DNA from: Gluconacetobacter azotocaptans
Lineage (GTDB): Bacteria; Pseudomonadota; Alphaproteobacteria; Acetobacterales; Acetobacteraceae
Direction: 5' to 3'
Assembly (NCBI RefSeq): GCF_014174355.1
Contig: NZ_JABEQF010000014.1
Location: 1-64,000, forward strand
DNA length: 64,000 bases
A program made the position numbers and the translations under genes. Shown one piece after another: positions 8,185-59,297 of this stretch. The notes under the pieces are model-generated. The model did no database searches and was not told the DNA's origin. It saw only the letters and a list, made by a program, of their open reading frames with translations. Numbering within the stretch: position 1 is the stretch's first letter; each line of letters begins with the position of its first letter.

Positions 8185-8213
8185 AACGCCTTCCCGACCG
8201 ACAGGACACTGAC

Positions 8214-8705: not shown

Positions 8706-8812
8706 GCGGGGCGCTGCCCCGTACCCCGCCAAAGGCAGTCGCCTTTGGAAACCAATCGTCTGGAGTCCAGGGCCTCAGGCCCTGGTGGGTTCGGGCGAAG
8801 CCCGAGGAAACG
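8706..8812. repeat. Interspersed intergenic palindromic repeat, copy 2
   Basis: Lies between two convergent genes. Contains GGGGCGCTGCCCC, AAAGGCAGTCGCCTTT, CCAGGGCCTCAGGCCCTGG and TTCGGGCGAAGCCCGA as successive self-complementary arms. It could act as a bidirectional transcription terminator. Confidence 0.75.
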
Positions 8813-8816
8813 CGCC

Positions 8817-9734: not shown

Positions 9735-9743
9735 GGGCGGGCG

Positions 9744-10136: not shown

Positions 10137-10186
10137 GGAACAGGGATCTCCCTAGCTGTCGGGCCGCAGGGCGCGATCGCCCGGCC

Positions 10187-11851: not shown

Positions 11852-11951
11852 CGGACGATCTCCCTTGTGCCTGTCTCCCCCGGATTGGTTCCGGGTGGTA
11901 GCGGTTCACGGGACGCCCGGCCGCATCCGGGCGCTCCGGATGACGTGCGGT

Positions 11952-12503
11952 TCAGCCCTGGCCCGGTCCTTTCTTCCGAAAGGCCGCAAGGCTGACCACC
12001 TGCGACGAGGCCGGCGTTTCGGCCGGTTCGTCCCCTGCCGGGGCGGGGGCGGTGGCCTCGGCGTCCGGCGGGGTGGTTTCACCGTCCTCCTCCTCCGGCT
12101 CCGGCGCCGTGAAGCGCAGGGCCAGCCGGACGTGGGGGTCGGCGAAGGCCGTGATGGCGGGGACGGGGATGACCAGGATCGACCCGACGCCGCCGAAGGA
12201 CAGGCCGACCGACACGGTCTGCGCCGCGCGGTCCACCTTCAGGTCCCAGAACTGGTGCTGCAGCACGATCGTGATCTCGTGCGGGTACTGGGCGCGCAGG
12301 CGGGCGGGCATTTCCACACCCGGCCAGCCGGTCAGGAACGTGATGTAGAAATGATGCCCGTCGGGCAGGCCCTCGCGGCCCACATGATCCAGCGCGCGCA
12401 GCATGACGTCGCGGTACGCGTCCTCGATCCAGGCGTCGTAGGGTATGAGGCTGTCGGGAATCACGGTGTCGAAACCGTTTTCCTCATCGTGATCGTCGGA
12501 CAT
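11952..12503 (-). CDS. sspB: SspB, alphaproteobacterial ClpXP adaptor
   Basis: 183 residues. The core (about 15-130) matches alpha-type SspB: IPYDAWIEDAYRDVMLRAL, HHFYITFLTGWPGVE, a QFWDLKV strand and SFGGVGSILVIPVPAI. After an acidic, proline-rich linker, the C-terminal tail has the short basic/hydrophobic motif VVSLAAFRKK, the usual ClpX-docking XB segment. The adaptor delivers ssrA-tagged proteins to ClpXP. It lies directly downstream of the tmRNA gene on the same strand (about 180 bases), so the tag-maker and tag-reader genes are physically linked. Confidence 0.93.
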   Translation of the reverse strand: MSDDHDEENGFDTVIPDSLIPYDAWIEDAYRDVMLRALDHVGREGLPDGHHFYITFLTGWPGVEMPARLRAQYPHEITIVLQHQFWDLKVDRAAQTVSVGLSFGGVGSILVIPVPAITAFADPHVRLALRFTAPEPEEEDGETTPPDAEATAPAPAGDEPAETPASSQVVSLAAFRKKGPGQG

Positions 12504-12680
12504 GCGGACTACTCCGTACCGTCCGGCCCCCGTGATCGGGCGGCCGGCGCCTGATGGCCTTGCTGCTTCGCGCCACGCCGTGCCACAGGTTCAAGCCATG
12601 CGTCAAACGCCGCCCCCTGGCAAGGGATGGACCTGCGGATCAGCTTCACGAAGCGGATATGATGCCACGTCCGGGCGATA

Positions 12681-12990
12681 AAGTGGGAGGGCTTCTGTTG
12701 CCCGGTGCCCTCCCGAACCGCGCTTGTCACTTATGCAGCGACAGCGAGCACCTCAGAGTTATCGTTGGCACTTGTGATTTAGCCCGATGACGGTGGTACA
12801 ATACCGGGCAAAAGGCAGGTCTTTACCATGCGTGTCGAGCCTGTTTCGTCCCCATGGCTCCCTGCCCCGAAGGGTCGTAGCGGAGAGCGTTCTGGTGGAG
12901 ACGCCGGGTACCGCCCCCGGGTCCACAACAATTATTCCACATGCCGTTTATCGCCATAGCCAAGGGGCGAACCCCTCCGGCACCATGGGA
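12681..12990 (-). ncRNA. ssrA: tmRNA, permuted two-piece alphaproteobacterial type
   Basis: Read on the minus strand, the acceptor piece comes first and ends in CCA at 12895-12893. It has a 5-bp T-stem (CCGGG/CCCGG) with the loop GGCGGTA, and the acceptor strand CGTCTCC. The coding piece starts at 12853 with GGGGACG, which pairs with CGTCTCC over 7 bp including a G3-U70 wobble, the alanine identity element. The excised spacer is about 39 nt (12854-12892). The tag frame at 12769-12731 encodes ANDNSEVLAVAA and ends in TAA. A hairpin with 8-bp arms (12685-12692 / 12707-12714) closes the coding piece. Outer ends are estimates. Rescues stalled ribosomes; sspB follows downstream. Confidence 0.93.
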
Positions 12991-13101
12991 TATAGGGTCG
13001 GCGACCGCCGTTGGCAAGCGGTGTGGCGCACGCCACGGTCGCGAAGCGGGAGGTTTCGTGATATGCGCCCCCCTCGGACCTCACGGACAAGGCGGAAGCA
13101 G

Positions 13102-14052
13102 ATGTTTTCAACGGACCAGCAATCGGAAATCGACGCCGCCCGCGCCGGCTGGGCCCAGACCCGCCGCACCGTCGTCCCCGCCGCCGAGGACGCGCTGTAC
13201 ACCCCCCTGCCGGTGCTGGAGACCGGATTCGTCCGTCTGATCGATTATATGGGCGGCGACGAAGGCATCGTGCAGGGCGCGCGGGTGTCGTACGGCAAGG
13301 GCACGCGCAGCACCTCGGACGACCGGGGACTGATCCGCTACCTGATGCGCAACCGGCACACCAGCCCGTTCGAGCTGGCGGTGGCCAAGTTCCACGTCCG
13401 CGCGCCCATCTTCGTCACCCGGCAGTGGTTCCGCCACCGCACCGCCAGCATCAACGAATATTCCGCGCGCTATTCGGTGCTGGAGAAGGAATTCTACTTC
13501 CCCCGGCCCGAGGACATCGCCCGCCAGTCGTCCAGCAACAAGCAGGGGCGCGGCGACAGCCTGCCCGCCGACGCCGCCGAACAGGTGCTGGCCCTGCTGC
13601 GCGAGGATGCCACGCGCTGCTACGACCATTATCTGGAAATGCTGAACCAGGACGAGGCCGGCAACGTCGTCGACCCCACGCGCCCGGTGGTGGCGCGCGA
13701 ACTGGCGCGCATGACCCTGCCGGTCAATGTGATGACGCAGTTCTACTGGCAGATCAATCTGTGGAACCTGCTGCATTTCCTGCGGCTGCGCGCCGACGCC
13801 CACGCCCAGTACGAAATCCGCGCCTATGCCGACGCCATCCTGACGCTGGTCGAACGCTGGGTGCCCCAGACCTTCGAGGCCTTCCGCGACTACATGCAGG
13901 AAGCCGCCCTGCTGTCCGGCCCGGCGCTGCGCGCCCTGCGCGCGGTCCTGGCCGGCGACGGCACGGTCGACCTGCAGGCGGCCGGCCTGTCGAAGCGCGA
14001 GGCGGCGGAGCTGATCGCCCTGCTGCCCGAAATCGGCTCGCGCGCCCGCTGA
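13102..14052 (+). CDS. thyX: Flavin-dependent thymidylate synthase ThyX
   Basis: 316 residues from the chosen ATG. FAD/NADPH-dependent methylation of dUMP to dTMP. The family motif RHRTASINEYSARY is at 111-124. Also typical are ARVSYGKGTRS, RHTSPFE and the C-terminal VPQTFEAFRDY. The frame stays open far upstream, but that part overlaps the tmRNA on the other strand and is not protein-like. The start at 13102 follows AAGGCGGAAG at a good distance and begins the conserved region. It is divergent from ssrA-sspB. Many Acetobacteraceae rely on ThyX rather than ThyA; whether thyA also exists is not visible here. Confidence 0.95.
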   Translation: MFSTDQQSEIDAARAGWAQTRRTVVPAAEDALYTPLPVLETGFVRLIDYMGGDEGIVQGARVSYGKGTRSTSDDRGLIRYLMRNRHTSPFELAVAKFHVRAPIFVTRQWFRHRTASINEYSARYSVLEKEFYFPRPEDIARQSSSNKQGRGDSLPADAAEQVLALLREDATRCYDHYLEMLNQDEAGNVVDPTRPVVARELARMTLPVNVMTQFYWQINLWNLLHFLRLRADAHAQYEIRAYADAILTLVERWVPQTFEAFRDYMQEAALLSGPALRALRAVLAGDGTVDLQAAGLSKREAAELIALLPEIGSRAR

Positions 14053-14069
14053 AGGCGGCGCATCGGGGG

Positions 14070-14135
14070 AAGGCCGGGCCCCCGGCCCGGCCCGGCCCCG
14101 GCAAGGGCCTTGGCCCTTGCATCTCCGTCCGTTTC
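14070..14135. repeat. Interspersed intergenic palindromic repeat, copy 3 (short)
   Basis: Contains CGGGCCCCCGGCCCG and CAAGGGCCTTGGCCCTTG arms directly behind the thyX stop, and may serve as its terminator. It lacks the longer TTCGGGC arm of other copies. Confidence 0.6.
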
Positions 14136-14315
14136 AGGACGTCCCGGGCACAGGCACAAAGCAGCCTGCACCGCTACCCGTTAAATATAAACTTCATTAT
14201 GCGGCCCCCTGAAGATTTCATAGACTCATGCAAGTGGTCTACGTCGCGGTGCGGGGGCGGATATCGGGTTCACGGCATCGGCAGAAAGACGAGAAAATAA
14301 TCGAAGGGATGCCCC

Positions 14316-16184
14316 GTGCGCTCGCCTGGTATTAAACTGTCCCTGGGCATCATTTTATTATTGATTGCCGTTTCCTGCATTGTTTCCGGAAAGTTTTCGA
14401 TAAACGGCCTGACCCGCGTCAACGACCGGGTGGAAAAGATCGCCCACCAGTCGCTTGCCAGCCTGAAGATCCTGGCCGCGATCGACAATCAGATCCGGAC
14501 GTTCCGCGCGGTCGAGATCAAGCAGCTTACGACGTCATCGCCCGAAGAATTCGCAACGCTTTCCAGCAACAGCAGCGCGATTTCCGAAAAGATCGCGCAT
14601 GCTATCGACGCCTACGTGCCTTTCATCAATTCGGACGACGATCAGGCCCTGTTCCACAATCTTCAGGAAGAATGGTCCGAATATGAAGAGTACCACGACA
14701 CGACGTTCAAGAACTGGGTCGTCGCGCAGGACAAGAGCCATGCCCTTCTGAACGAAGGCCAGCAGCTGATCGAGTTGCAGGAGAAAGTGTCCGGCACCCT
14801 CACGTCATTCATGAACGGCAGCATCAATAACGCGGCGTCCTATGCGCTGGATTCCGGCGTGACCTACAGGACGACGCTGCGGCGGGTCTATGCGGCCTAT
14901 GTCGCCCTGTTCGTTGTCATGGTCGTTGCCGTCCTTGTGGTGGTGTACAACATTCTGCGGCCCCTTCAGAAAATCAATGTGTCCATCACCAGATTGGCCG
15001 GCGGCCAGACGGACCTGACTTTTCCGCTGGCGCACAGGGGGGATGAAATCGGCGCGATCTCCCGTTCGCTGGACGTGTTCCGCGCCGCCGCCATCGCAAA
15101 ACGGAAGCTGGAGCAGGACGCCGAAATCCAGCGCCGGCACGCCGAGGCCGAACGGGTCGCCATTCAGGAAAAAGCCGAAGCCGAGGCCCGGGAGTGGCTG
15201 CGCAAGGCCACGGGCGCCCTGGCCGCCGGCCTGAAGCGGATGGCCGGGGGCGACCTGTCCTTCCAGATCGAGACCGAATTTTCAAAGGCGTTCGAGCCCC
15301 TGCGCCATGATTTCAACCAGTCCCTGGCGCAGCTTGCCGCGACATTTTCCCAGATGTCCGGCGCCATTCACGTCATAAGCGACGGCACCCACGGGCTGGC
15401 GGCCGGGGCCGACACCCTGGCGCGCCGCACCGAAACGCAGGCGGCGGCCCTGGAACAGACGGCGGCCGCCGTGGCGGGCATCACCCGAAGCGTGGGCGAT
15501 ACCGCAAAACGGTCCGAGGACGCCCAGCAGATCGGCGCGCGGGCGCGCCAGTCCGCCGCGACGTCGACCGCCATCACCAACGACGCCGAAGCGGCCATGA
15601 ACCGCATCGAACAGGGCTCGGCGCAGATTGCCGCGATCGTCGACGTGATCGACAGCATCGCCTTCCAGACCAATATCCTGGCGCTGAACGCCAGCGTCGA
15701 GGCCGCACGGGCCGGGACGGCCGGCCGGGGCTTTGCCGTCGTCGCCACCGAAGTGCGGTCGCTGGCGCAGAAATCGGCCAAAGCCGCCCTGGATGTCCGG
15801 ACGGTGATCCGCCAGACCGCCGCCGACGTGCAGGAGGGCGCGGGCCGCGTCAAGGATTGCAGCAGGGCGCTGCGGAAGATCGCGTCGTTCATCGGCCAGA
15901 TGGGCCAGCACCTGGACGCCATCGCCATCGCGGCCCGCGAACAATCGTCCAGCCTGGCGGAAATCAACGCCGCCGTGGGGTCGCTGGACCAGACGACCCA
16001 GCAGAACACCACCGTCGCCGACCAGTTCCACGCGACCTCCCGCAGCCTGGCGGACGAAAGCGGCAGGCTCAACGGGCTGGTCAGGCAGTTCAGCCTGCCG
16101 GAAACCGACGTCGCCGGGCAGCACGCCGCATTCCCCGACCACGCGGCGTCGGGCCGGGTGCTGCTGGCCGCTCACGAAGAATGA
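14316..16184 (+). CDS. Methyl-accepting chemotaxis protein
   Basis: 622 residues from a GTG start preceded by GAAGGG. First membrane segment about 8-25, then a periplasmic four-helix-type sensor region (about 35-190), a second membrane segment (about 195-215) and a HAMP domain (about 215-270) with LARGGQ-like and EIGAISRSL. A helical linker is followed by the cytoplasmic signalling domain, whose hairpin tip reads IAFQTNILALNASVEAARAG around 450-469. It transmits ligand signals to CheA/CheW. No che genes are adjacent, so this is an orphan receptor gene. Ligand unknown; the sensor resembles the 4HB_MCP group only in helical content. Confidence 0.92.
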   Translation: MRSPGIKLSLGIILLLIAVSCIVSGKFSINGLTRVNDRVEKIAHQSLASLKILAAIDNQIRTFRAVEIKQLTTSSPEEFATLSSNSSAISEKIAHAIDAYVPFINSDDDQALFHNLQEEWSEYEEYHDTTFKNWVVAQDKSHALLNEGQQLIELQEKVSGTLTSFMNGSINNAASYALDSGVTYRTTLRRVYAAYVALFVVMVVAVLVVVYNILRPLQKINVSITRLAGGQTDLTFPLAHRGDEIGAISRSLDVFRAAAIAKRKLEQDAEIQRRHAEAERVAIQEKAEAEAREWLRKATGALAAGLKRMAGGDLSFQIETEFSKAFEPLRHDFNQSLAQLAATFSQMSGAIHVISDGTHGLAAGADTLARRTETQAAALEQTAAAVAGITRSVGDTAKRSEDAQQIGARARQSAATSTAITNDAEAAMNRIEQGSAQIAAIVDVIDSIAFQTNILALNASVEAARAGTAGRGFAVVATEVRSLAQKSAKAALDVRTVIRQTAADVQEGAGRVKDCSRALRKIASFIGQMGQHLDAIAIAAREQSSSLAEINAAVGSLDQTTQQNTTVADQFHATSRSLADESGRLNGLVRQFSLPETDVAGQHAAFPDHAASGRVLLAAHEE

Positions 16185-16327
16185 CCGCCTTTCTGCGGGA
16201 CATTCCCGGTGCGCCCTGCGGCCCGATGGAATGCGCACACACGGGCGACGGCAACGCCCCTCAGGGGGCAGCGCGGAACCAATAGCATCGGCAAGGGTTC
16301 GCTCTCTGCCCACACGAGGATTCCGAC

Positions 16328-17123
16328 ATGCCTCTCCGTCATCCTTCTCTTGCGCGCCGGGGCTTTGTCCGTCTGGTGGGCTCCGGCGCCGCTCTCCTGT
16401 CCTGCGCGTGTGGACGCGCTCATGCGCAGCAGCCCGCCGAGCATGGCGGCGATATTCCGGGGGCGAAGAAGTCCACGAAGAGCATCATGCTGGGCATGGG
16501 GGCTGATCTGCTCCAGAATGACAGCCCCATCCGCTCGATCAACATGTGTTTGAACGGGTTTCATTTTTATGCTGACGATATGGGCCGCCAGATCGAGGCC
16601 CATCATTATTGCACGCACATCAACGAAGAATTTTTCCAGTGCGTGATTTACGACGGAAACAAATCCGATTCCCGCCTGATCGGTATCGAGTATATCGTTT
16701 CCGAACGCCTTTTTAAGCCTCTGCCTGAAGAGGAAAAACCGCTCTGGCACAGCCACAGGCACGAGACGACAGCGGGCGAACTGGTCATGCCAGGCCTTCC
16801 GCAAGCCGTCGAACATACGGCGATCGCCGGCCTGGTCTCCACATATGGCAAAACATGGCATACGTGACAGGTCGACAGGAATTCCGCGCTCCCCCTGGGG
16901 CATCCCGCAACTGATGATGGGATTCACGGCCGACGGTCAGCTCAAGCCCGAACTGGTTCGGAGCCGGGACAGGGAACTTGGAATCAGCACCGCCGCCGTG
17001 AAGAAAGCCCGCGCCGATCTGGCACGGACGGCCCCCCGGCCCGACCCGGGCGCCGACGGGTGGCAGGACGGTACATCACCCCAGCTCGTTCTCAACGAGA
17101 TGCCGCTCAGGAACAGACGTTAG
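16328..17123 (+). pseudogene. DUF1264 (OBAP-type) protein gene with nonsense and frameshift lesions
   Basis: The first 179 codons match the DUF1264 family, with a twin-arginine/lipoprotein-like leader (RRGFVRLVGSG...LLSCAC), GFHFYADDMGRQIEAHHYC and RLIGIEYIVSERLFK. A TGA at 16865-16867 replaces the Trp of TYGKTWHTWQVDR; after it, the same frame still reads QVDRNSALPLG. Then a G run at 16897-16900 shifts the frame, and the family C-terminus (PQLMMGFTADGQ...PELVRSRDRELGI) continues in another frame to 17123. Two independent lesions make a pseudogene likely. The family is related to plant oil-body-associated proteins and has no known reaction. Confidence 0.85.
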
Positions 17124-17215
17124 CATGATGTGAATGAACGCCGTCCTTGCCGGGTTCGGTGGCCGGTATTTTGGGGTTCGTACCTGACAGATACGATCAG
17201 CCGGCCGGAAAACGA

Positions 17216-17815
17216 TTACTGCTCCTTTTTAAACAAATCCTGGAAGATCAGCGGGCCCCAAACGCGGCCACGTGCATGGACCAATGCGCCACCTTCGTTG
17301 ATCTTTCCCAGCTTGACGGGGGCGAATCCGAGTTGCTTGGCCAGGGCCGCCACGGGAGCGGTCGCATCCTCGTCGTCGCTCGACAGAAAGACGACCCGGT
17401 GGCCGCCCTCGACGACCGGATCGGTCGCCAGGGTGGCCGCAATCAGGTGATTGAACGCTTTCACGAACCTGGCGCCGGTGAATGCCTTTGCGGCGAAGGC
17501 GGAGGACAGGAGACCGTCCATCTCCTCAAGGGGAGCCAGCGAGTTCATCGCGTCGATGATTGTCTTGCCTTTCCAGTCCGGCAGGGCCTTCGCAACTTCG
17601 CGATGCTGCTCAAACGGGACCGCCAGGATGATGGTGTCGGCCTCAAGCGCATCCCGCAGCGACCTGGCGACGACCGTAGGGCCAATCGCCCGGGCCTGCG
17701 GCGCTAATACCTCAGGTGGCCGGCGGCTCGCGACGGTCACGTCGATGTTTTTACGGGCGAAGGCGTGGGCGAGGGCCTGACCGATCTTGCCAAATCCGAC
17801 AATCGTGTAGCTCAT
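17216..17815 (-). CDS. NADPH-dependent F420-reductase-like oxidoreductase
   Basis: 199 residues from the chosen ATG. Rossmann start SYTIVGFGKIGQALA at residues 2-16, then TVASRRPP (phosphate of NADPH expected near SRR), DTIILAVPF and a C-terminal block with VKLGKINEGG. This is the NADP oxidoreductase coenzyme-F420-type fold, here probably an NADPH-binding reductase of unknown substrate. The start at 17815 has GGAAAAG 6 bases upstream; an in-frame ATG 24 bases earlier has no clear ribosome-binding site. It lies in the same direction as the SDR gene upstream, 122 bases away. Confidence 0.82.
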   Translation of the reverse strand: MSYTIVGFGKIGQALAHAFARKNIDVTVASRRPPEVLAPQARAIGPTVVARSLRDALEADTIILAVPFEQHREVAKALPDWKGKTIIDAMNSLAPLEEMDGLLSSAFAAKAFTGARFVKAFNHLIAATLATDPVVEGGHRVVFLSSDDEDATAPVAALAKQLGFAPVKLGKINEGGALVHARGRVWGPLIFQDLFKKEQ

Positions 17816-49311: not shown

Positions 49312-49360
49312 GGGTCATGCGCGGATCACCGGCGCAGGGCACGTTCATGGGCTGCCGCAT

Positions 49361-49855
49361 ATGAGCACGCTGCGCATTCGCCGCTTTGTCCCGGCCGACG
49401 CGCAAGGTGTGATGGGTGTGATACTTCCCATCCAGCGGGAAGAATTCGGCATCCCGATTACGGCGGAAGATCAGCCGGACCTGCATTCGATTCCGTCCTT
49501 CTACCAGAGCGGCGTCGGCGATTTCCTGGTGGCGGAGGAGGGCGGCCATGTCGTGGGCACGGTCGGCCTGAAGGATATCGGGGCCGGGCAGGCGGCGTTG
49601 CGCAAGATGTTCGTCGCCCCGGCCTGGCGGGGGCGGGAGCATGGTGTCGCGCAGGCGCTTCTGCAGAACATGCTGGGCCATGCGCGCGGCCGCGCGGTGC
49701 GCGACATCTTCCTGGGGACGACGGACGCATTCGCCGCAGCCCATCGCTTCTACGAGAAGAACGGTTTTCGCCGGATCGACCCCCGGTCCCTGCCGGGTTC
49801 CTTTCCAAGAATGGCCGTGGATACACGCTTCTACGGCTTGAGACTGGGGTCGTGA
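49361..49855 (+). CDS. GNAT-family N-acetyltransferase
   Basis: 164 residues. LRIRRFVPADAQGV at the start, VGTVGLKDIGAGQAALRKMFVAPAWRG as strands 3-4, and FYEKNGFRRI at the end. The acetyl-CoA loop reads WRGREHGVAQALL, where the usual Q/R-x-x-G-x-G/A is preserved as RGREHGVA. Acceptor unknown. It borders the left arfB copy. Confidence 0.88.
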   Translation: MSTLRIRRFVPADAQGVMGVILPIQREEFGIPITAEDQPDLHSIPSFYQSGVGDFLVAEEGGHVVGTVGLKDIGAGQAALRKMFVAPAWRGREHGVAQALLQNMLGHARGRAVRDIFLGTTDAFAAAHRFYEKNGFRRIDPRSLPGSFPRMAVDTRFYGLRLGS

Positions 49856-49864
49856 TTTTTCGAT

Positions 49865-50286
49865 CTAGTCGTCATGCCGCAGGGCGCGTCCGCGCTTGAT
49901 GCTGGCGCGGTGGGCCTTGCCGTCCAGCCGGCGCTGGCGGGCGGCGCGGCCGGGGCGGGTGGCGACGCGGAAGGCGGGGCGGTGCGCGGCCTCGCGGATC
50001 AGGGCGGCCAGCCGTTCGACCGCGTCCTCGCGGTTGCGTGCTGGGTGCGGAAGCGCCGGGCGGTGATGACGATGACGCCGTCGCGCGTGGCGCGGCTGCC
50101 CGCGACCTCGAGCAGGCGGGCGCGTACCCGTTCGGACAGCGCGGGCGAGCGCGCGGCGTCGAAGCGTAGCTGCGCCGCCGTCGCCACCTTGTTGACGTTC
50201 TGCCCGCCGGGGCCGGAGGCGAGGATGTAGCTGACCTCCAGCTCGGACTCGGCCAGGGACAGTCCGGGAAGGATCGGGATTGCCAT
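49865..50286 (-). pseudogene. arfB: arfB copy 1, frameshifted
   Basis: Nearly identical to the intact copy at 58171-58590. The first 80 codons read the ribosome-rescue hydrolase with SGPGGQNVNK (GGQ at 27-29). One base is missing at about 50038-50040 (GTTGCGTGCTG here, GTTGCGCTGCTG in copy 2). After this the frame ends early, while the true C-terminal basic tail (KAHRASIKRGRALRHDD) remains in another frame. The basic tail enters the mRNA channel and is essential in this family, so this copy should be inactive. Confidence 0.88.
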
Positions 50287-50310
50287 GCGCGTGGCATAGC
50301 ATGTATCGCG
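49865..50310 (+). repeat. Left direct repeat (arfB copy 1 and upstream 24 bp)
   Basis: About 445 bases nearly identical to 58171-58614 in the same orientation, ending in GCATAGCATGTATCGCG. Only a handful of substitutions, one missing base and one three-base difference at the stop are seen. The two repeats bracket a 7.9-kb lower-GC segment. Confidence 0.85.
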
Positions 50311-50319
50311 TCGCTGTCG

Positions 50320-51219
50320 TCAGCCTGCGTCCAGGTCTTCTCGTGGTCCTGCCCATAGCGCCGCTATGCGCGGTATGCTCCATCCAAACCTCGCTCCCAG
50401 GGTGGAAACGGCGATCAATGTAGCTCCGATGTACTGGACGACTGTCAAGCGATGACCATAAACTAAATTATCACAGAGAATCGCCACGAGCGGATATATG
50501 AACGTCAAGGAACTTATCGTTGCGGTACTCAAATGCGGGTATGCCTTAAACATCAAGGCGTAACATAGCCCTGTAAGAATTACACCAGCACCCACGATCC
50601 ATCCCCACGCCGACCAACCGGGCAGATGGCTATAGTTCGCGAACGGCGCCAAAAGCACGGCGCCGGTTGCAAGTTGCCAGAATGTCGTGATTTCTGCGCG
50701 CTGGTTGCGGATGCCCTTGGTAATGAGGGTGATGAGTGCGTAGGCAGCGGCGGCTAATAACGCAAGCGTCACGCCGATCAACGCATGATCTCCACCAGGC
50801 ATTCCTTTGAAGAGCAGCCCACTGGAAAGTGCTACACCAATAAATGCGGCTATAATCCATGAAATTTGCAAGCGCGTCACTTTTTCCTTGAGGAACAAGG
50901 CTCCGGAAATAATGATAAAAAATGGCTGAATATGATAAATTATTGTTGCCGTTGCAATCGACGTCAGTCCATAGGCCGTAAAGAATAAAACCCAGGAACA
51001 CACTATGAGTGCGCCGCATGCCATGGCCGCGATGATATTGCGCGTATGGAAGTGAGAAAACAAACCACGAGACAGACACCAAATACCGAGGGATATAGCG
51101 CCGAATGCACAGCGCCAGAATACGAAATTTATTGGGTCAAGGGTGCTTTGCACGACGAAGACACCAATAGTTCCGGAAAGCGCCATTGCGACGGCGAGTT
51201 GAAGGGATGGGGATTGCAT
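50320..51219 (-). CDS. EamA/DMT-family transporter
   Basis: 299 residues with 10 membrane segments. FVFWRCAFGAISLGIW in repeat one, SIATATIIYHIQPFFIIISGALFLKEKV as the end of repeat one, and ISSLTFIYPLVAILCDNLVYG in repeat two. Likely a small-metabolite or amino-acid exporter. GC content is clearly lower than that of core genes. It is transcribed away from a lysR remnant at 51805, an arrangement normal for exporter and regulator. Confidence 0.9.
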   Translation of the reverse strand: MQSPSLQLAVAMALSGTIGVFVVQSTLDPINFVFWRCAFGAISLGIWCLSRGLFSHFHTRNIIAAMACGALIVCSWVLFFTAYGLTSIATATIIYHIQPFFIIISGALFLKEKVTRLQISWIIAAFIGVALSSGLLFKGMPGGDHALIGVTLALLAAAAYALITLITKGIRNQRAEITTFWQLATGAVLLAPFANYSHLPGWSAWGWIVGAGVILTGLCYALMFKAYPHLSTATISSLTFIYPLVAILCDNLVYGHRLTVVQYIGATLIAVSTLGARFGWSIPRIAALWAGPREDLDAG

Positions 51220-51252
51220 GATCCTCTCCTTTTTTACTCTACGAAGCAGCCA

Positions 51253-51561
51253 TCAGGACGTTTTTTTGGCAGGTGAGACTATTGGAGGCGCTGGAATATC
51301 AAGGCTTAGTGGAAATTCCAAGTGAGGGCTAAACGAGTCGTAAGGGCATGAGATATGGCCTTCTGTTGTCGGTTTGCGCGTAAATGTTGGATCTGGAACC
51401 GGATGGTCGCCCACCGTTTCCAGAGCATCAGAATCTTCATCTCTGACGCCGAATTCTGCGAGAATGCGAATTATGTCAAGACCACCAACGGTGACAAAAC
51501 GATCCTTCACATAGGTTTCATGTATATCGCGCAGCAATCCGTTCATCTGTATTTTATGCAT
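51253..51561 (-). CDS. Hypothetical protein upstream of the DMT exporter
   Basis: 102 residues, no membrane helix. The N-terminal half is helical (LLRDIHETYVKDRF, DIIRILAEFGV); the second half is Pro/Ser-rich and may be disordered or out of frame with a lost C-terminus. 33 bases upstream of the EamA gene on the same strand. Not recognised. It could be the N-terminal part of a longer, broken gene. Confidence 0.45.
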   Translation of the reverse strand: MHKIQMNGLLRDIHETYVKDRFVTVGGLDIIRILAEFGVRDEDSDALETVGDHPVPDPTFTRKPTTEGHISCPYDSFSPHLEFPLSLDIPAPPIVSPAKKTS

Positions 51562-51804
51562 GGATATGAATTTTCTCTATCACCATAAAAGAAATGAATC
51601 GTAACCTGTCGCAATATGGAAGACGCGTACGTGGCTCTTCGAGCCGTCGCGCACGTTGGCACCGCACACCACGGTGGAGCTGCCGTCGTTTAGTCACGGG
51701 GAACTTTGCAGCATTCCTCTCCTCCAGCTTCCAATTGTAAGGCGTGCCGCAAATTAGAGAAACGATAATTTGACGTAAGTTGCATTAGGAATCATGATGG
51801 TAAG

Positions 51805-52130
51805 ATGACACGTGCACTCGATCTTCTGCTGATTCGCACCTTCGTCACTGTGGCCGATCGCGCCAGCATGACAAACGCGGCGAATAAGCTGCGTTTGACG
51901 CAGGGAGCGGTCAGTCAACATGTCAGGCGATTGGAAGACTAATCGAGTCGGTCGCTGTTTGAGCGTGCGCGTGGTGGTCTGAGACTGACTTCGTTGGGAG
52001 AACGCCTGCTGGGCAAGGCCCGGCATCTTCCTGCTCTTAACGATGAAATATGGGGGGGACTTGGACGAGCACGCCCTCACAAGGCAAGTTGCGTCTCCCT
52101 GCATCATCCCAGACAATGCAGAAACCATGC
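51805..52130 (+). pseudogene. LysR regulator remnant (HTH part)
   Basis: Reads MTRALDLLLIRTFVTVADRA...LTQGAVSQHVRRLED, then a TAA at 51940-51942 where the paralogue has Gln. The same frame continues with RSLFERARGGLRLTSLGERLLGKARHL; near 52055 other frames take over (GKLRL is in a third frame) and similarity ends. The intact paralogue at 55326-56192 matches position by position (LTQGAVSQHVRRLEDQL, ERLLGKARYLLALNDDIW). Nonsense mutation, frameshifts and loss of the effector domain show decay. Confidence 0.82.
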
Positions 52131-52151
52131 TCTTTTCCTCCATCATGGATT

Positions 52152-52173
52152 CCTCCTTCAAAAACGAAGGAGG
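52152..52173. terminator. Short perfect hairpin, possible terminator
   Basis: CCTCCTTC, loop AAAAAC, GAAGGAGG: an 8-bp perfect stem. Not followed by a clear T run, so termination is uncertain. It lies just after the lysR remnant. Confidence 0.35.
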
Positions 52174-52384
52174 GGCAGTTTCTCTTCGCCTGACATGGCT
52201 GACTCGGACTAAAAGGGAGGATTAAGGTGAGCGATCATACGCAGGATATGCCCGAGAGGGACGCACGGTAGAATGAACAGCCACGCTGGGACCGGGATCC
52301 GTGTGTCGGATATCTTCTTCGGGCAGTGAACTTGAGTGATCGGCGCGGCACGGGGTCCATCAACTGATTGGTCAGGAAGACGTC

Positions 52385-53224
52385 TTGGCGCGCACTTACG
52401 AAAGAAATACCACGCGATATTGGTTCGACAATGATCTTCCCGGCCTCAGCCTGATGTGTGCGGACTTTACGAGACAGGATTATCCGCCGCATCTGCATGA
52501 CGGCTTTGTCATCGCCATTACCGAGGCAGGCGGATCGATCATCAAAAGCCGCGGCGTTGTGGATGAGGCGCGCCCCTCATCGCTGTTGGTTTTCAACCCG
52601 GACGAGCCCCACGCGGGTACAATGGGACGCAGTCAGCACTGGCGCTATCGATCCCTATATCTGTCTGATGACGCGATCAAGGTCGTGGCGCAAGGTCTCG
52701 GCATCGACGATATTCCGCGTTTTAATAGAAATATTTTCCTTGATCCTGATCTGATCCAGAGTTTTCTATCGTTACATTATTGTCTTGATGGCAATACGAA
52801 TGGGCTCCGCCGCCAAGAATTGCTAATCGGCACTTTTGGGAGTCTGTTTCGACGCCATGGTCATGGTGGCAGTGTTATTGATCGTGCCCCACGAGATCGC
52901 ATGCTGATCCGACAGGTCATGCAGAGGATGACGGATCAATTCGCGGATGATTTGAGTCTGGAGGAATTAAGCCGGTCGGTCGGTTTAACTCCGTTTCAAC
53001 TGATCGGCCTTTTCAAGCGTGGTATCGGTCTGACCCCGCACGCATATTTAATGCAGATCCGCTTGGAGCATGCTCGTGATTACCTTCGGCGTGGCATACC
53101 CATTGCACAGGCCGCCGTAATGGCTGGGTTCTATGACCAGAGCGCGTTCACAACCTATTTTCGGCGCTGTCACGGAATCACGCCCAAGCAGTTTGTGAAG
53201 GCCATCCGTCAGGTGGAATCCTGA
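52385..53224 (+). CDS. AraC-family transcriptional regulator
   Basis: 279 residues from a TTG start; no better ATG fits. N-terminal cupin-like arabinose-binding type domain (YPPHLHDGFVIAITEAGG, about 32-49; LLVFNPDEPHAG). Two HTH motifs at the C-terminus: LSLEELSRSVGLTPFQLIGLFKRGIGLTPHAYL and IPIAQAAVMAGFYDQSAFTTYFRR with the AraC signature HGITPKQF. It lies 82 bases before the AlaX gene in the same direction and probably controls it with the following permease. Confidence 0.9.
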   Translation: MARTYERNTTRYWFDNDLPGLSLMCADFTRQDYPPHLHDGFVIAITEAGGSIIKSRGVVDEARPSSLLVFNPDEPHAGTMGRSQHWRYRSLYLSDDAIKVVAQGLGIDDIPRFNRNIFLDPDLIQSFLSLHYCLDGNTNGLRRQELLIGTFGSLFRRHGHGGSVIDRAPRDRMLIRQVMQRMTDQFADDLSLEELSRSVGLTPFQLIGLFKRGIGLTPHAYLMQIRLEHARDYLRRGIPIAQAAVMAGFYDQSAFTTYFRRCHGITPKQFVKAIRQVES

Positions 53225-53306
53225 ACGGTCTTTCCAACGCAATTTTCGCCAATCTTTTCTTCTCGAAAAGACGGACGCTCCTGATTTTGAGATTCAGGAG
53301 TACCGT

Positions 53307-54026
53307 ATGTCGCCGCGTGCCTTTTATCATGACCATCCCGAGACCTTGTGTCTCCAGACCGAGATCATTGCCTCGCAGCCCGGACGTGTCCGGCTGGCGC
53401 ACTCGCCGTTCTTTCCCGGTGGCGGTGGCCAGATGGCGGATCGCGGCATGCTGCGCTGGCAGCATGGGGAACTACCGGTGACGGGATTTGAAGGAAGCGG
53501 GAGGGATCAGTGGATCGTGCTGAGCGATCCCGATGCGGATATTACGGGTACCGTGGAAGCTGTTGTCGATCCGGCCTTTCGGCAGATGATGCGCGAACTG
53601 CATACCGGCACGCACATCCTGAATGCTCTTGTGTTTCAGAATTTCGATGGCGCCTTGGTGACGGGCGTTCAGATGAACGAGGACGGCACCGCCCGCATGG
53701 ATTTCGATGTGCCGGACGCGGACAATGGTCGACTGCGATCGCTCGAAGCTCCGATCAATGATGTGCTCCGGCAGAATCTCCCAGTGACAGATAGCTATGC
53801 CGGAATCGAACAGGCGGCGAAGGAGCACGGTCTGATCCGTTCGCGATCCGTGGCCCCGCCACCAACCCCAGACGGCACGATTCGGATCGTCGAAATTCGT
53901 GGCCTGGACCGGCAAGCCTGCGGTGGTACGCATCTGGCTGAAACTGGCATGTCCCGACCCATCTGCATTCTCAAGATTGAAAACAAGGGACGTCATAATC
54001 GGCGAGTCCGCATTGGTCTGGCATAG
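53307..54026 (+). CDS. AlaX-type alanyl-tRNA editing protein
   Basis: 239 residues. Stand-alone relative of the AlaRS editing domain that deacylates mischarged Ser- or Gly-tRNA(Ala). Zinc ligands: HTGTH at about 98-102 and CGGTH at about 205-209. The N-terminal substrate loop reads FFPGGGGQMADRG, which matches the HPxGGGQPxDxG family loop. Between the AraC gene and an amino-acid permease, so probably co-regulated with transport of the same amino acid. Start ATG at 53307 preceded by GGAGTACCGT. Confidence 0.92.
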   Translation: MSPRAFYHDHPETLCLQTEIIASQPGRVRLAHSPFFPGGGGQMADRGMLRWQHGELPVTGFEGSGRDQWIVLSDPDADITGTVEAVVDPAFRQMMRELHTGTHILNALVFQNFDGALVTGVQMNEDGTARMDFDVPDADNGRLRSLEAPINDVLRQNLPVTDSYAGIEQAAKEHGLIRSRSVAPPPTPDGTIRIVEIRGLDRQACGGTHLAETGMSRPICILKIENKGRHNRRVRIGLA

Positions 54027-54040
54027 GAGCGGATGTCATC

Positions 54041-55323
54041 ATGGATACGGTTGATATCCCAACTGGATCGGTAAGCCTGCGGCGCGCTTTGGGGTTGCGG
54101 GCTGCCGTTGCCCTTGGTGTCGGGGGTACGATTGGCGGAGGAATTTTTGTCCTGATCGGCAATGCGGCGATGCTTTCCGGACCTGCGGCATTGCTGGCTT
54201 TTGGGCTCGCATTCGTCGTGGCTCTTTTGATCGCTCTGCCTTATGCGGAACTCGCCTGCCGTTATCCCACGGCAGGGGGCGGTTATGCTTTCGTGCGCGA
54301 AGTGCTTGGTCACGAATGGGGATTTCTGATGGGGTGGGTATTCTGGGGCTCCTATGTCTTCATCAGTGGCTACGTCACGTTTGGTTTCGGGGGATATTTG
54401 AGCGCTCTGACTGGTATACCGTCGCTTCTCGGTGCCCTCGGGCTTGTGGCAGTGTGTACCCTGATCAATGTCGTGGGTGTGAAACTGTCAGGGCAGGTCC
54501 AGCAGGCGATCATCGTCCTCGCGCTGGCCGGATTATCGGGTTTTGTTCTGCTGGGCCTGCCGTCAATCACGGTCACATATTTCCATCCGTGGATGCCCCA
54601 TGGCATGGCTGGGGTCATGTCGGCCACGCTGATGGCCTTTCTAGCCTTCGGCGGCTTCGACATGGTCGCTGCCGCGGGGGAAGAGGTGGCGCGACCGGAG
54701 CGCAATCTGCCACTGGCGATTCTGCTGACGCTGGGGATTGTCCTGTTCGTCTACCTTGCCGTCGCCTTCGTCGCTCTGGGGACGTTGGGGTGGCGCAGTC
54801 GTCAGCTCCGTTAGCGGATGCCGCACGTATTTTCCTCGGTCGCAACGGGGAAAAGGGGATCGCTCTGGTGGCAGTCCTGACGACGGCGGCAACGGGAAAT
54901 GCCGTTTTGGTGGTCACGTCGCGGATTTGTTTCGCAATGGCGCGCGACGGGCTCCTACCGGGAGCGCTGGCCCGCGTCCAGATGAGCACGGGGGTGCCGT
55001 GGGCCGCGACCTTGCTGAGCGCGGGGATGCTCGGTGTGGTTGCTTTGACGGGGTCGCTCCGGCTTGCGACGGCGATCGGCGGATGCCTCTACGTACTGCA
55101 CTTTATTCCCTCGCTCCTGGTCCTCATAAGTCTGCGAAAGCGCGATGATATATTGCCGCCGTTCCGGATGCCGCTTCCGACTATTTTGCTGCCACTCGCC
55201 CTTGGCGTATCCGGGCTCATGCTCGTGGCTAGTGGCGGGCTGGGAATGCTCGGAGGGCTGATTTGGATCGGAATTGGCGCGTGTCTTCGGTGGTTGAAAC
55301 CGATGGTTCGACGGCATTTATGA
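54041..55323 (+). pseudogene. APC-superfamily amino-acid permease, frameshifted
   Basis: Frame one (54041-54814) gives the first 7 helices: LGVGGTIGGGIFVLIGNAA with the G-rich substrate loop, YPTAGGGYAFVREVLG, FLAFGGFDMVAAAGEEVARPERNLPLAI. A missing G in the run at 54787-54790 stops it. The second frame continues from about 54788 (DAARIFLGRNGEKGIALV...RICFAMARDGLLPGALARV) to 55323 and completes a normal-length protein of about 427 residues. Only one lesion is seen and it is in a homopolymer, so either a recent inactivation or a base-call error. It lies 14 bases after the AlaX stop. Confidence 0.82.
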
Positions 55324-55325
55324 GG

Positions 55326-56192
55326 TCACGCAGCCTGTCGAAACTGTGAAAATGTGGCTCGCAAAGCGCGGGCCATTTCAGTCGCGGCTGACGATATGGA
55401 TTTTGCGGAGAGATGGAGAGTGATTGCAAATGATGACAGATCGGGCAGCCCGGCGTCGCTGAGAATGGTGAGATCTGCCGGGATGGTGGATGACAGCCAG
55501 GCGGTCACGGCGAGATCTGCTCTTACCGTCGTGGCTGTCGCTTCGATGCTGCCCGCTTCGAACGCGCTTCGCCAAGTGAGCCCGCTTTTACGCAGTGCCT
55601 CGAGGATGACAGGACGAAAGGCGCAGGTGCGTGCCACCATCGAAATAGGTAACGGACGGCGACGATAGGCCTGGCCGCCCCGGGCGCCCACCCACACCAG
55701 CCTGTCCACTGTCAGACATTCGCCTGTCTCATGTCCCGCAGGCTCTTCAATGACCGCGAGGTCCAACTCTCCCTTCGCGAGAGCGACTTTCAGTTCAGGG
55801 GAGGCAGAGCAGACGAGGGACAATTCGACGTGGGGATGGGCGTCCGAGAACGCTTTCAAGGCCGGCGCGATACTGGTGCCGATCAGGTCTGGAGGTACAC
55901 CGAGGCGCAATTTCCCCTTGATAGCGTGGCCTTCCAGATCTTCCCAGATGTCATCATTAAGCGCGAGGAGATAGCGCGCCTTACCGAGCAGACGCTCCCC
56001 CAAAACAGTAAGAATCAGCCCGCCACGCGTTCGTTCAAACAGGGCGCCTCCCAATTGATCTTCCAGGCGACGGACGTGCTGGCTGACGGCACCTTGTGTC
56101 AGATGCAGCGCATTCGCGGCAATCGTCATGCTGTCATGGTCGGCAACAGTGACGAAAGTGCGGATCAGGGCGAGATCAAGCGTGCGTGCCAT
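55326..56192 (-). CDS. LysR-family regulator, LysG/ArgP-like position
   Basis: 288 residues from ATG 56192. HTH at about 3-60 (IRTFVTVADHDSMTIAANALHLTQGAVSQHVRRLE), then an effector domain. It is divergent from a LysE-family exporter gene 97 bases away, the normal arrangement of the lysG-lysE type, so it probably senses the exported amino acid. Its stop is 2 bases past the permease stop, in convergent orientation. Paralogue of the remnant at 51805. Confidence 0.9.
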   Translation of the reverse strand: MARTLDLALIRTFVTVADHDSMTIAANALHLTQGAVSQHVRRLEDQLGGALFERTRGGLILTVLGERLLGKARYLLALNDDIWEDLEGHAIKGKLRLGVPPDLIGTSIAPALKAFSDAHPHVELSLVCSASPELKVALAKGELDLAVIEEPAGHETGECLTVDRLVWVGARGGQAYRRRPLPISMVARTCAFRPVILEALRKSGLTWRSAFEAGSIEATATTVRADLAVTAWLSSTIPADLTILSDAGLPDLSSFAITLHLSAKSISSAATEMARALRATFSQFRQAA

Positions 56193-56289
56193 AGCGGCAT
56201 TATAGATCGTAATGGCCGACACATCAAACCATCGTTTTTCTAATGGATTGTCGCAACTTACATTCAGGTCGCGACAGGGAGAAAAAACG
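56193..56289. promoter_or_regulatory. Divergent lysR / lysE-type control region
   Basis: 97 bases between divergent regulator and exporter start codons, A/T-rich compared to surroundings. The operator should be here, but a single T-N11-A palindrome cannot be chosen by eye. Confidence 0.45.
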
Positions 56290-56883
56290 ATGGCCACAGA
56301 GGGACTGTTATCGCTTGCCGTGTTCACAATGGCGTCCACGGTGACGCCAGGCGGCGCGACAACGATGGCGACAGCTTCTGGCGCGCATTTCGGATACCGC
56401 CAGACTCTTCCCTTGATGGCGGGGATTGCGGTCGGGCTTGGCTCGATGACGGCTGGTACCGCCGTCGGACTGGGGGCGATCATCATAAATGCACCGCGAT
56501 TCCAGATGGCGATGAAAGTCGTTGGAACGGTCTATCTGCTCTGGCTCGCTTGGCGGATCAGTCGGAATGGGCCACCGCGTCAGGCGAGCATGGCGCGCCC
56601 TGCACGGTTTCTGTCGGGCCTCTGGCTGACGTGGCATAACCCGAAGGGTTGGGCGATCGCGCTCGGTGCGGCGGCATCCTTCGCGGGTATCGCCAGCAGC
56701 CCCTTGATTCTGGCGTCGCTTCTGGGCCTTGCATTTGGCATTTCTGCGATCCTGTCGCTGTCACTCTGGTGCATGGCGGGCTTGGTGGTGGGGCGTTTAT
56801 TGCGTACTGACCGTCAATGGCACCTCCTGAACGCCGCGCTGGGCATTCTCCTTGCATTATCGATTGCGCCGATGTGGTTCTGA
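56290..56883 (+). CDS. LysE/RhtB-family amino-acid exporter
   Basis: 197 residues from ATG 56290 (AGGGAGAAAAAA upstream), six membrane segments. STVTPGGATTMATASGAHFGYRQTLPLM matches the family start (TPGPNxxxxxxxxxxxGxrxG) with GG for GP. WHNPKGWAIAL corresponds to the fifth helix block (NPKAxxF). Likely exports an amino acid. Its regulator is the divergent LysR gene. Confidence 0.9.
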   Translation: MATEGLLSLAVFTMASTVTPGGATTMATASGAHFGYRQTLPLMAGIAVGLGSMTAGTAVGLGAIIINAPRFQMAMKVVGTVYLLWLAWRISRNGPPRQASMARPARFLSGLWLTWHNPKGWAIALGAAASFAGIASSPLILASLLGLAFGISAILSLSLWCMAGLVVGRLLRTDRQWHLLNAALGILLALSIAPMWF

Positions 56884-56889
56884 CGCGGG

Positions 56890-57885
56890 ATGTGCGGGCA
56901 GCCACGCGGACGTGCCCGACGCTCTCAGATCGTCTTTCCATTTGCGGCCAGAGTGGCTTTGTTGATCCTGCCTCTCTTATGGACCGTCGGCGATGTATCG
57001 GCGTCGAGAGCGGATGAGGCCCCTTCCCACCAATGGTACACAGGGAGCCTGATGTCACCATCGGGTGCCCTGCCAGTTGGAGGAATCCTCGTCATGGAGC
57101 CCTACGTCGCGTTTCAGTGCGCGAATGATCGGTTTGATGCCGTTGGTCGGAATCAGTCGCTCGCCGCGTCGTCATGCACGATAAGCAATTTTACCGCCAT
57201 CAAATATGGAGTGACCCGTTCGCTCAGTCTACAAGCTATTCCTACGATTGCGCGTAATAAAGATGCCCGAAAGTGGGGTAACTTGGGATTCGGCGATCTG
57301 CCGGTGGATATCATGTGGCGCGTTCTCGACGAGGATTCGCGCCATCGATACCCCACTCTATCGTTCCTGAGCGGTATAAGCTTTCCGACCGGGCGGTACC
57401 AGAAGCTTGATTCCATGGCCGACGCGATGGGATCGGGAGGATGGCAGCTGCGTATAGGGCTTGCGGCGCAGTCGCTGCAAACGATGCCGAATAATCGACC
57501 ACTGCGTTTGCGCGGATGGCTTGCATTCCACGTGCCACTTGGTCGCGTTTCCGTCCGGGGGCTGAATGCTTACGGCCTTCCCGCAAGTATGGCGTCCACA
57601 GTGAGGGTGGGCATGTCAGGGCAAGGTGGTGTGGCCGGAGAATATGGTGTTGATCGCCATTGGGTGCTCGCTTTCGATTTGGTTCGGAATTGGTCGAATG
57701 GAAACAGGATCTATCGGTCGAGGCGCAGTGCAGAGCCATCAAGCGGCGATTGGGAGGTCGCTCCGGCCGTCGAATATAATTGGTCGGCGAAGTTGGGGAT
57801 CATTGCGGGCGCTGTGATCCCCATGGTCGGGCATAACGAGGCTAGAGAGTTTGTAGGACAGGCTGCTGTCAATATTGTATTCTAA
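56890..57885 (+). CDS. Outer-membrane beta-barrel 'transporter' (MetA-type) protein
   Basis: 331 residues. Signal peptide-like hydrophobic stretch near 18-40. Then a beta-rich protein with GILVMEPYVAFQ, FTAIKYGVTRSLSLQAIPTI, FLSGISFPTG, and a C-terminal strand ending in Phe (VGQAAVNIVF), as expected for BAM-dependent insertion. It resembles the phenol-degradation-MetA-type putative transporter family. It follows the LysE-type gene by 6 bases, so both are likely one transcript. Substrate unknown. Confidence 0.8.
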   Translation: MCGQPRGRARRSQIVFPFAARVALLILPLLWTVGDVSASRADEAPSHQWYTGSLMSPSGALPVGGILVMEPYVAFQCANDRFDAVGRNQSLAASSCTISNFTAIKYGVTRSLSLQAIPTIARNKDARKWGNLGFGDLPVDIMWRVLDEDSRHRYPTLSFLSGISFPTGRYQKLDSMADAMGSGGWQLRIGLAAQSLQTMPNNRPLRLRGWLAFHVPLGRVSVRGLNAYGLPASMASTVRVGMSGQGGVAGEYGVDRHWVLAFDLVRNWSNGNRIYRSRRSAEPSSGDWEVAPAVEYNWSAKLGIIAGAVIPMVGHNEAREFVGQAAVNIVF

Positions 57886-58023
57886 CCATGATAGGCATGG
57901 CACGGTGCACGAGCCTCCTGTATCAACATCGCGGTCGATCGCTGGTCAAAGGCGGACAGACAGCCGGTTATGCTGACCTGACCAGCAGAGCCTATCCGGG
58001 ATTTTGTGCGGGGCCAGTTACTC

Positions 58024-58165
58024 TCAGAGGGTGAAGCGTTCGCCGAAGATGATGGCGAACTGCGTTTTAGCCTCGGTCCATTCACGTGGCGGGCGCTTCC
58101 AGTCCTGCGCCAGGTGATTGAGCACGAGATATCGCAACTTCATCGCGGCCGCCAATGACAACTGC
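58024..58165 (-). pseudogene. IS256-type transposase C-terminal stub
   Basis: Minus-strand frame reads SLAAAMKLRYLVLNHLAQDW followed by KRPPREWTEAKTQFAIIFGERF and a stop at 58024-58026. This is the C-terminus of IS256-family transposases, where a KLxYL...W...REWxxAxxQFAIxF pattern is typical. The rest of the element is missing; the sequence runs directly into arfB copy 2 at 58171. It marks the right junction of the inserted segment. Confidence 0.8.
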
Positions 58166-58170
58166 CTGTC

Positions 58171-58590
58171 CTAGTCGTGCCGCAGGGCGCGTCCGCGCTT
58201 GATGCTGGCGCGGTGGGCCTTGCCGTCCAGCCGGCGCTGGCGGGCGGCGCGGCCGGGGCGGGTGGCGACGCGGAAGGCGGGGCGGTGCGCGGCCTCGCGG
58301 ATCAGGGCGGCCAGCCGTTCGACCGCGTCCTCGCGGTTGCGCTGCTGGGTGCGGAAGCGCCGGGCGGTGATGACGATGACGCCGTCGCGCGTGGCGCGGC
58401 TGCCCGCGACCTCGAGCAGGCGGGCGCGTACCCGTTCGGACAGCGCGGGCGAGCGCGCGGCGTCGAAGCGTAGCTGCGCCGCCGTGGCCACCTTGTTGAC
58501 GTTCTGCCCGCCGGGGCCGGAGGCGAGGATATAGCTGACCTCCAGCTCGGACTCGGCCAGGGACAGTCCTGGAAGGATCGGGATTGCCAT
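58171..58590 (-). CDS. arfB: Peptidyl-tRNA hydrolase ArfB, intact copy
   Basis: 139 residues. Stalled-ribosome rescue hydrolase: ASGPGGQNVNKVATA with the catalytic GGQ at 27-29, then the alpha/beta domain and the basic tail KAHRASIKRGRALRHD that enters the empty mRNA channel. Intact, unlike the left copy; the stop codon differs by three bases. It backs up the tmRNA pathway encoded at 12.7 kb. The start is conserved in both copies. Confidence 0.93.
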   Translation of the reverse strand: MAIPILPGLSLAESELEVSYILASGPGGQNVNKVATAAQLRFDAARSPALSERVRARLLEVAGSRATRDGVIVITARRFRTQQRNREDAVERLAALIREAAHRPAFRVATRPGRAARQRRLDGKAHRASIKRGRALRHD

Positions 58591-58614
58591 GCGTACGGCA
58601 TAGCATGTTTCGCG
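58171..58614 (+). repeat. Right direct repeat (arfB copy 2 and upstream 24 bp)
   Basis: Partner of 49865-50310; the identity covers the whole gene plus GGCATAGCATGT and a few further bases, then stops. Right border of the 7.9-kb segment. Confidence 0.85.
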
Positions 58615-58664
58615 CCGCCGCGCGTGCTATCGGTTGGGTCGCGAAACGGAAACAGGGGGAACGC

Positions 58665-59297
58665 ATGCCGGGTACGACCAATCTGATCGCCTTCGCGCTG
58701 GTGGCGCTGGGCATGGCGCTGACGCCGGGGCCGAACATGATCTATCTGGTCTCGCGGTCGATCTGCCAGGGCTGGCGGGCGGGGCTGGTGTCGCTGGGCG
58801 GGGTGGCGCTGGGCTTTGTCATCTACATGCTGTGCGCCGCGTTCGGCATTACCGCGCTGCTGCTGGCGGTGCCCCATGCCTATGACGCGCTGCGCCTGGG
58901 CGGGGCGGCGTATCTGCTGTATCTGGCGTGGCAGGCGATCCGCCCCGGCGGACGCTCGCCGTTCCAGGTGCGCGACCTGCCCGTCGACGGGCCGGGCCGG
59001 CTGTTCGTGATGGGGTTCGTCACCAACCTGCTGAACCCCAAGATCGCGGTCATGTACCTGTCGCTGCTGCCGCAGTTCGTCCAGCCGGGCCACGGCGGGG
59101 TGCTGGCGCAGTCGCTGACGCTGGGCAGCACGCAGATCCTGGTCAGCATCGCGGTGAATACGGCGATCGCGCTGGCGGCCGGGTCGATCGCATCCTTCCT
59201 GACCACGCGCCCGCGCTGGGCCATGGTGCAGCGCTGGCTGATGGCCACCGTGCTGGGTGGGCTGGCGGTCCGCATGGCGCTGGAGAGCCGGCGCTGA
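58665..59297 (+). CDS. LysE/RhtB-family exporter
   Basis: 210 residues from ATG 58665 (CAGGGGGA upstream). Canonical family start MALTPGPNMIYLVSRSICQGWRAG, six helices, and FVTNLLNPKIAVMYLSLLPQF in the fifth helix. High GC, core-like, unlike the LysE-type gene inside the segment. Exports an amino acid or homoserine-like compound. Divergent from arfB copy 2. Confidence 0.92.
   Translation: MPGTTNLIAFALVALGMALTPGPNMIYLVSRSICQGWRAGLVSLGGVALGFVIYMLCAAFGITALLLAVPHAYDALRLGGAAYLLYLAWQAIRPGGRSPFQVRDLPVDGPGRLFVMGFVTNLLNPKIAVMYLSLLPQFVQPGHGGVLAQSLTLGSTQILVSIAVNTAIALAAGSIASFLTTRPRWAMVQRWLMATVLGGLAVRMALESRR

Follow-up and report, generated by a model that had tools for sequence, protein, structure and literature searches.

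Two arfB copies at the borders of a strain-specific segment

We analysed the first 64,000 nucleotides (nt) of contig NZ_JABEQF010000014.1 of Gluconacetobacter azotocaptans (the window; genome G000), in which two copies of the ribosome-rescue gene arfB border a segment of unusual composition. A repeat search placed these direct repeats 8.3 kb apart, at 49871–50314 and 58174–58618; their alignment begins at 49865 and gives 98% identity. The differences comprise a 1-nt deletion at ∼50038 in the left copy relative to the right, one 3-nt indel adjoining the stop codon, three substitutions within the gene's 5′ quarter, and additional changes upstream of the start codon. The right copy is an unbroken 139 amino acid (aa) match with an RF-1 domain and the GGQ motif. 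The left copy (arfB′) is matched as two pieces, residues 1–85 and 83–139, and its reading frame is broken. A search of the 4.13-Mb draft genome (57 contigs) found no third arfB, the six other matches covering only 27–86 nt.

GC content is 0.65 in a GNAT acetyltransferase gene to the left of the repeats, 0.51–0.59 in the pieces between them, and 0.70–0.76 in the SDR, arfB, and LysE genes; measured every 500 bases over 50500–57999, it ranges from 0.50 to 0.64. An IS256-type stub starts with its terminal inverted repeat at ∼57990, diverges from intact copies at ∼58150, inside the transposase gene, and ends some 20 nt from the stop codon of the right arfB. A Pfam scan of 11 segment open reading frames (ORFs), with the second piece of an interrupted permease gene and the IS stub outside its scope, recognised neither a recombinase nor a replication gene. 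A preliminary description made from the sequence alone had reported the near-identical direct copies, the single missing base on the left and the intact gene on the right, the lower GC between them, and the stub beside the right copy, and all of these are borne out.

To place the segment, we compared the window with 13 congeners (14 genomes with the window's strain, which falls within Gluconacetobacter). A full arfB is present in 12 of the 13; none was found in Nguyenibacter vanlangensis LMG 31431 (G013), an assembly 87% complete in 1310 contigs. The nearest relative in the sample (G002) has the order SDR-arfB-LysE with one arfB, 12 nt from the SDR stop codon, and neither island nor GNAT. This is the single-copy empty site that the preliminary description had envisaged, though it lacks the GNAT gene. 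Another congener, G009, also has arfB followed by LysE. Because this order recurs in G002 and G009, the right window copy is, by gene order, the resident arfB. The GNAT gene, which had been taken for the native left neighbour, was found in none of the 13 congeners (E 1e-10), and the 299 family genomes searched hold four relatives at 55–62% identity. Because of this absence, and because G002 has neither island nor GNAT, we place the strain-specific DNA at about 49313 to 58173, or ∼8.9 kb, with GNAT included.

A phylogenetic tree, also suggested earlier, places the two window copies as sisters (support 99/96), with G002 joining at 80/81; an origin as old paralogues is rejected on this placement. 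We also searched 150 family genomes with the protein of the right copy (E 1e-25), a census that includes only two congeners and that ruined copies would escape. Matches occur in 108 genomes, three of which have more than one: the window's strain, G142 (described below), and G111. The last was set aside: its genome is 77% complete, and the two matches come from contigs that resemble each other.

The surroundings of arfB vary across the genus (loci L042–L055): the neighbours are MgsA/RarA-type genes in several genomes, SDR in G002, and an HflX-like gene, identified by eye, in G009. Such differences indicate that the neighbourhood is often rearranged. In G010 an insertion of ∼6.8 kb (L053, ∼10737–17494) lies upstream of arfB and contains a recombinase-domain fragment, a RelB-type gene, and a DUF2840 gene. 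It starts in a GST-like gene (by eye), the next gene upstream rather than arfB itself, and was therefore rejected as a case of arfB targeting. Separately, ARAGORN identified a tmRNA gene at window positions 12640–12985, so trans-translation is probably available to the strain in addition to arfB.

An EamA-linked arfB in other species

In the window, the 5′ side of arfB′ is joined to an EamA transporter gene, and arfB remnants adjoin the same gene in two other species. In G. asukensis LMG 27724 (G003, contig C10), 111 nt of the arfB 3′ end and ∼50 nt of its 5′ end are followed by the 3′ half of EamA; the pieces are ordered as in the left window copy, and a transposase-like ORF comes next. In G. 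sacchari LMG 19747 (G007, contig C36), what remains is the last 64 nt of an arfB joined directly to the last 72 nt of EamA. The two remnants lie behind the same FemAB-like gene, i.e. at a locus other than the window's, and both genomes also encode a full arfB elsewhere. The other 12 FemAB-like loci, from 11 congeners and the window's strain, contain no match to arfB or to the segment. All three EamA-abutting arfB copies are broken, each differently.

The EamA stretch shared by the window and G. asukensis is 93% identical over 503 bp, whereas the FemAB-like gene, a core gene, reaches 79%; the contrast argues for horizontal transfer of the stretch. Since the arfB-EamA linkage is found in three genomes at two loci, arfB′ and EamA appear to have moved as a linked pair that was joined before it reached the window's strain. 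Full EamA genes with 86–87% protein identity occur in G. sacchari (on another contig), G011, and G013, with no arfB in the loci examined. A paralogue at 57% lies elsewhere in the window's genome, and G002 and G009 have relatives at 57–58%.

Mosaic structure of the two copies

Both window copies were compared with the EamA-linked remnants of G003 and G007 (the tails) and with 12 resident arfB genes. Over the C-terminal 32 nt, both copies differ from the tails at one position and from the residents at 5–11. Over the next 48 nt, they are identical to G002 and differ from the G003 tail at five positions. Eleven sites separate G002 from the G003 tail; in both copies, the first six are tail-type at five and the last five are all G002-type.

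The two copies part at their edges. The right copy lacks one codon at its 3′ edge, like both tails, and matches the tails at six of the seven nt past the stop codon; the left copy has the codon, like all 12 residents. On the 5′ side, the left copy runs on into EamA and the right copy toward LysE. By these letters, the left copy joins a resident-type 3′ edge to an EamA-type 5′ side, and the right copy a tail-type 3′ edge to a resident 5′ side. Both copies look like mosaics, partly resident and partly EamA-linked in type, which suggests homologous recombination within arfB.

A serine recombinase element inside arfB in another genus

The family does contain an element inserted in arfB. In G142 (contig C53), from another genus, ∼6 kb of DNA lies inside the GGQ-coding stretch (locus L122, ∼7039–13528) and splits the resident gene into ∼100 nt (∼7039–7136) and the rest (13188–13528); in G028, of the same genus, arfB is whole. 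An 11-bp core (L123, 10242–10252) is present at both junctions. The element has its own full arfB ∼70 nt past the left junction, 76.6% identical to that of G028 and different at the core, as well as a DNA methylase gene and a 586-aa large serine recombinase adjoining the right junction; in form it is apparently intact. The window's genome has no match to this recombinase (E 1e-80), and both of its arfB copies are continuous at the core. Among plasmids, identity to the recombinase is at most 33% among the 15 records listed out of 20, and no relative was confirmed in viral contigs. The G142 element is the form that the attachment region proposed in the preliminary description would take, and the window's segment is without its defining features.

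Viral contigs contain 15 arfB loci, four of which were viewed by ORF list only. In two of these contigs (L128 and L130), an arfB-like gene is a few hundred bases or less from where the locus and the contig end, possibly at a provirus edge.

A broader conjecture is that mobile DNA in Acetobacteraceae repeatedly lands in arfB and brings a replacement copy with it. The G142 element would be one such invader in apparently intact form, and the arfB′-EamA units of the window's strain, G. asukensis, and G. sacchari would derive, in decayed state, from others of the kind. We regard this as improbable.

Origin of the duplicated borders

The explanation that we favour, while holding belief and doubt about evenly balanced, is additive (Campbell-type) integration by a single crossover in arfB, the acquired segment carrying its own arfB′. 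Under this model, a segment with amino-acid transport and AlaX-type cargo would have come to lie between SDR and the resident copy of arfB. The donor would have been circular or repeated, with the order IS stub, arfB′, EamA, and onward to ORF331 (Table 1). One crossover in arfB between chromosome and donor would serve as the integration step and leave a full gene at each border, with conversion of the core in addition. Together, such a crossover and conversion would produce the border types described above. GNAT would have arrived separately, and ribosome rescue would be the task of the right copy, the left one being redundant and in decay.

The preliminary description had proposed either an insertion that brought its own arfB as an attachment region or a recombination event with arfB as the crossover site. 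From the first proposal, acquisition is upheld by the empty site of G002, and the EamA-linked gene supplies the second arfB; site-specific attachment finds no backing, with no recombinase recognised among the 11 scanned ORFs and a repeat that is a whole gene. The second proposal gains from the mosaic, which suggests exchange between the copies, although the assignment of border types depends on one codon and seven nt.

Several observations weigh against the single-crossover model. That codon and the seven flanking nt constitute its entire specific signal, and the six matches among seven, with a chance of ∼0.005, were chosen after looking. Both copies are tail-type at the end and resident-type in the core, so that conversion must be added. 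Of the five tail-type letters, two are shared with G009 and are perhaps ancestral, and over the C-terminal 32 nt G001 is no farther from the copies than G002 (5/32). Full homologous copies flank the insert, but GNAT sits outside the left one and calls for an event of its own. A circular donor was not observed, and a megablast search of the plasmid collection gave no near match to the segment. No other genome contains the whole segment among the 299 searched in the family, a set without all of the congeners; 11 of the 299, the window's strain included, match any part of it (E 1e-20), the other ten only in pieces. The best plasmid protein relatives among the matches listed reach 57% for AlaX, 50% for EamA, and 58% for arfB, and phages hold two distant arfB matches. 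A plasmid or phage origin was rejected on the megablast result and the distance of these protein relatives.

An alternative is plain insertion, in which a fragment running from GNAT through arfB′ and EamA to the IS was joined between SDR and arfB illegitimately or through the IS, with arfB′ as a passenger that later underwent gene conversion. We consider this unlikely, though worth serious attention: one event would also account for GNAT, the SDR-to-arfB gap in G002 is very short, and conversion is needed under any reading. It predicts, however, that the 3′ border should be tail-type in the left copy and resident-type in the right, and the reverse is seen, on few letters. The structure might otherwise be an assembly artefact in which short reads cross-joined two arfB loci through ∼310 near-identical bases, as a 57-contig draft could allow; swapping the flanks at arfB yields one resident locus and a closed 8.3-kb loop. 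Such a loop could exist only as a free circle, but among the scanned ORFs none was recognised as a replication gene; the copies also show about ten differences, and a single contig spans both. An artefact is improbable on these grounds.

We give very little credence to a decayed site-specific element that targeted arfB, supplied a replacement, and lost its recombinase. An element of this kind exists in G142, in the same family. Its recombinase, however, was found in only one of 397 family genomes, G142 itself (E 1e-80), none was recognised among the scanned ORFs of the segment, the window's resident arfB is whole rather than split at the GGQ-coding stretch, and the EamA-linked remnant stands behind a FemAB-like gene in two species. 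Hardly credible at all, in our judgement, is that arfB was first duplicated locally in tandem and that foreign DNA then entered between the two copies: their sister relationship fits, but the arfB-EamA junction of G. asukensis and the remnant of G. sacchari would be unexplained, as would the tail-type C-terminus, and the shared junction disfavours it.

Gene content of the segment

The segment seems foreign and decaying, and its former role, inferred from protein families, was likely amino-acid transport and tRNA-Ala editing (Table 1). Among relatives from other families of the class, the AraC matches share a locus with AlaX in 10 of 11. The ends of the 102-aa ORF correspond by tblastn to two blocks ∼580 nt apart in the relatives, with an intact EamA neighbouring, and its interior seems to have been deleted. 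The listed LysR-type ORF probably starts near 56195, judged by eye.

Table 1. Features in and beside the strain-specific segment (window positions)
Feature	Position	Strand	Basis and remarks
GNAT acetyltransferase gene with short flanks (gene 49361–49855)	49313–49864	+	Pfam PF00583; strain-specific; 65% GC
Left arfB copy (arfB′)	49865–50314	-	Broken by 1-nt deletion; 5′ side joined to EamA; junction common to G003
EamA (DMT) transporter	50320–51219	-	Pfam PF00892; 93% over 503 bp to G003, contig C10
102-aa ORF, no family	51253–51561	-	No Pfam match; two ends match relatives L091, L092, L094, L095 (tblastn)
LysR-like stretch, broken	51754–52161	-	DNA similarity to LysR genes of L091/L092; 70% to 55902–56244; listed ORF without Pfam match
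AraC-type regulator	52385–53224	+	Pfam PF12833, PF02311
Alanyl-tRNA editing protein, which we take to be AlaX-type from its domain and plasmid annotation	53307–54026	+	Pfam PF07973; matches so annotated; best relative (70%) from a different family within the class
APC amino-acid permease gene, interrupted	54041–55323	+	Pfam PF00324/PF13520 on first piece; first piece ends at 54814, rest in another frame
LysR-type regulator (listed ORF)	55326–56486	-	Pfam PF03466, PF00126 at residues 106–339
LysE-type exporter, divergent from LysR	56212–56883	+	Pfam PF01810
331-aa ORF (ORF331), no family	56890–57885	+	No Pfam match
IS256-type stub: terminal inverted repeat and C-terminal transposase end	57990–58150	-	96% to IS copy in G255; seven copies compared; family name by eye
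Right arfB copy	58174–58618	-	Intact; by gene order the resident copy, with conserved LysE neighbour
LysE-type gene, native neighbour of resident arfB	58665–59297	+	Pfam PF01810; arfB-LysE continuous, 93.6% in G002, 92.0% in G009

Comparison with known systems and implications

Single-crossover integration, site-specific islands in tRNA genes or ssrA, and IS-flanked composite transposons are established systems with which the segment can be compared. Like a Campbell-type integration, it has full direct gene copies at both borders, one of them broken, and a mosaic sequence; unlike one, it has no recognised replicon, and the donor form was not seen. It shares with islands in tRNA genes, ssrA, and other conserved genes the low-GC acquired DNA beside a conserved gene and the empty site in a relative, but differs in the lack of a recognised recombinase, in a ∼445-bp whole-gene repeat in place of a short att, and in an entire resident gene. 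The G142 element likewise places a second full-length arfB and acquired DNA at the arfB locus, whereas its recombinase, 11-bp core, and split resident gene were not seen in the window. The IS256-type stub at one border recalls a composite transposon; this single IS is truncated, however, none was recognised at the other border, and the genome has no second copy of the stub.

Passages of PMC4131195 describe genomic islands in ssrA and tRNA genes and ArfB as a backup, with no mention of arfB as a target. In titles and opening lines of abstracts from open-licence literature, we found nothing on arfB as an integration site and no recombinase element or island that brings a second copy of its target, which is weak evidence of absence. 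The window's segment seems unusual in detail and ordinary in kind. It suggests that a housekeeping gene can travel along with foreign cargo and provide a homologous arm, leaving a mosaic pair of which one copy decays. The G142 element, which disrupts one ribosome-rescue gene and comes with another in its place, may be well suited to asking whether invaders have to safeguard ribosome rescue.

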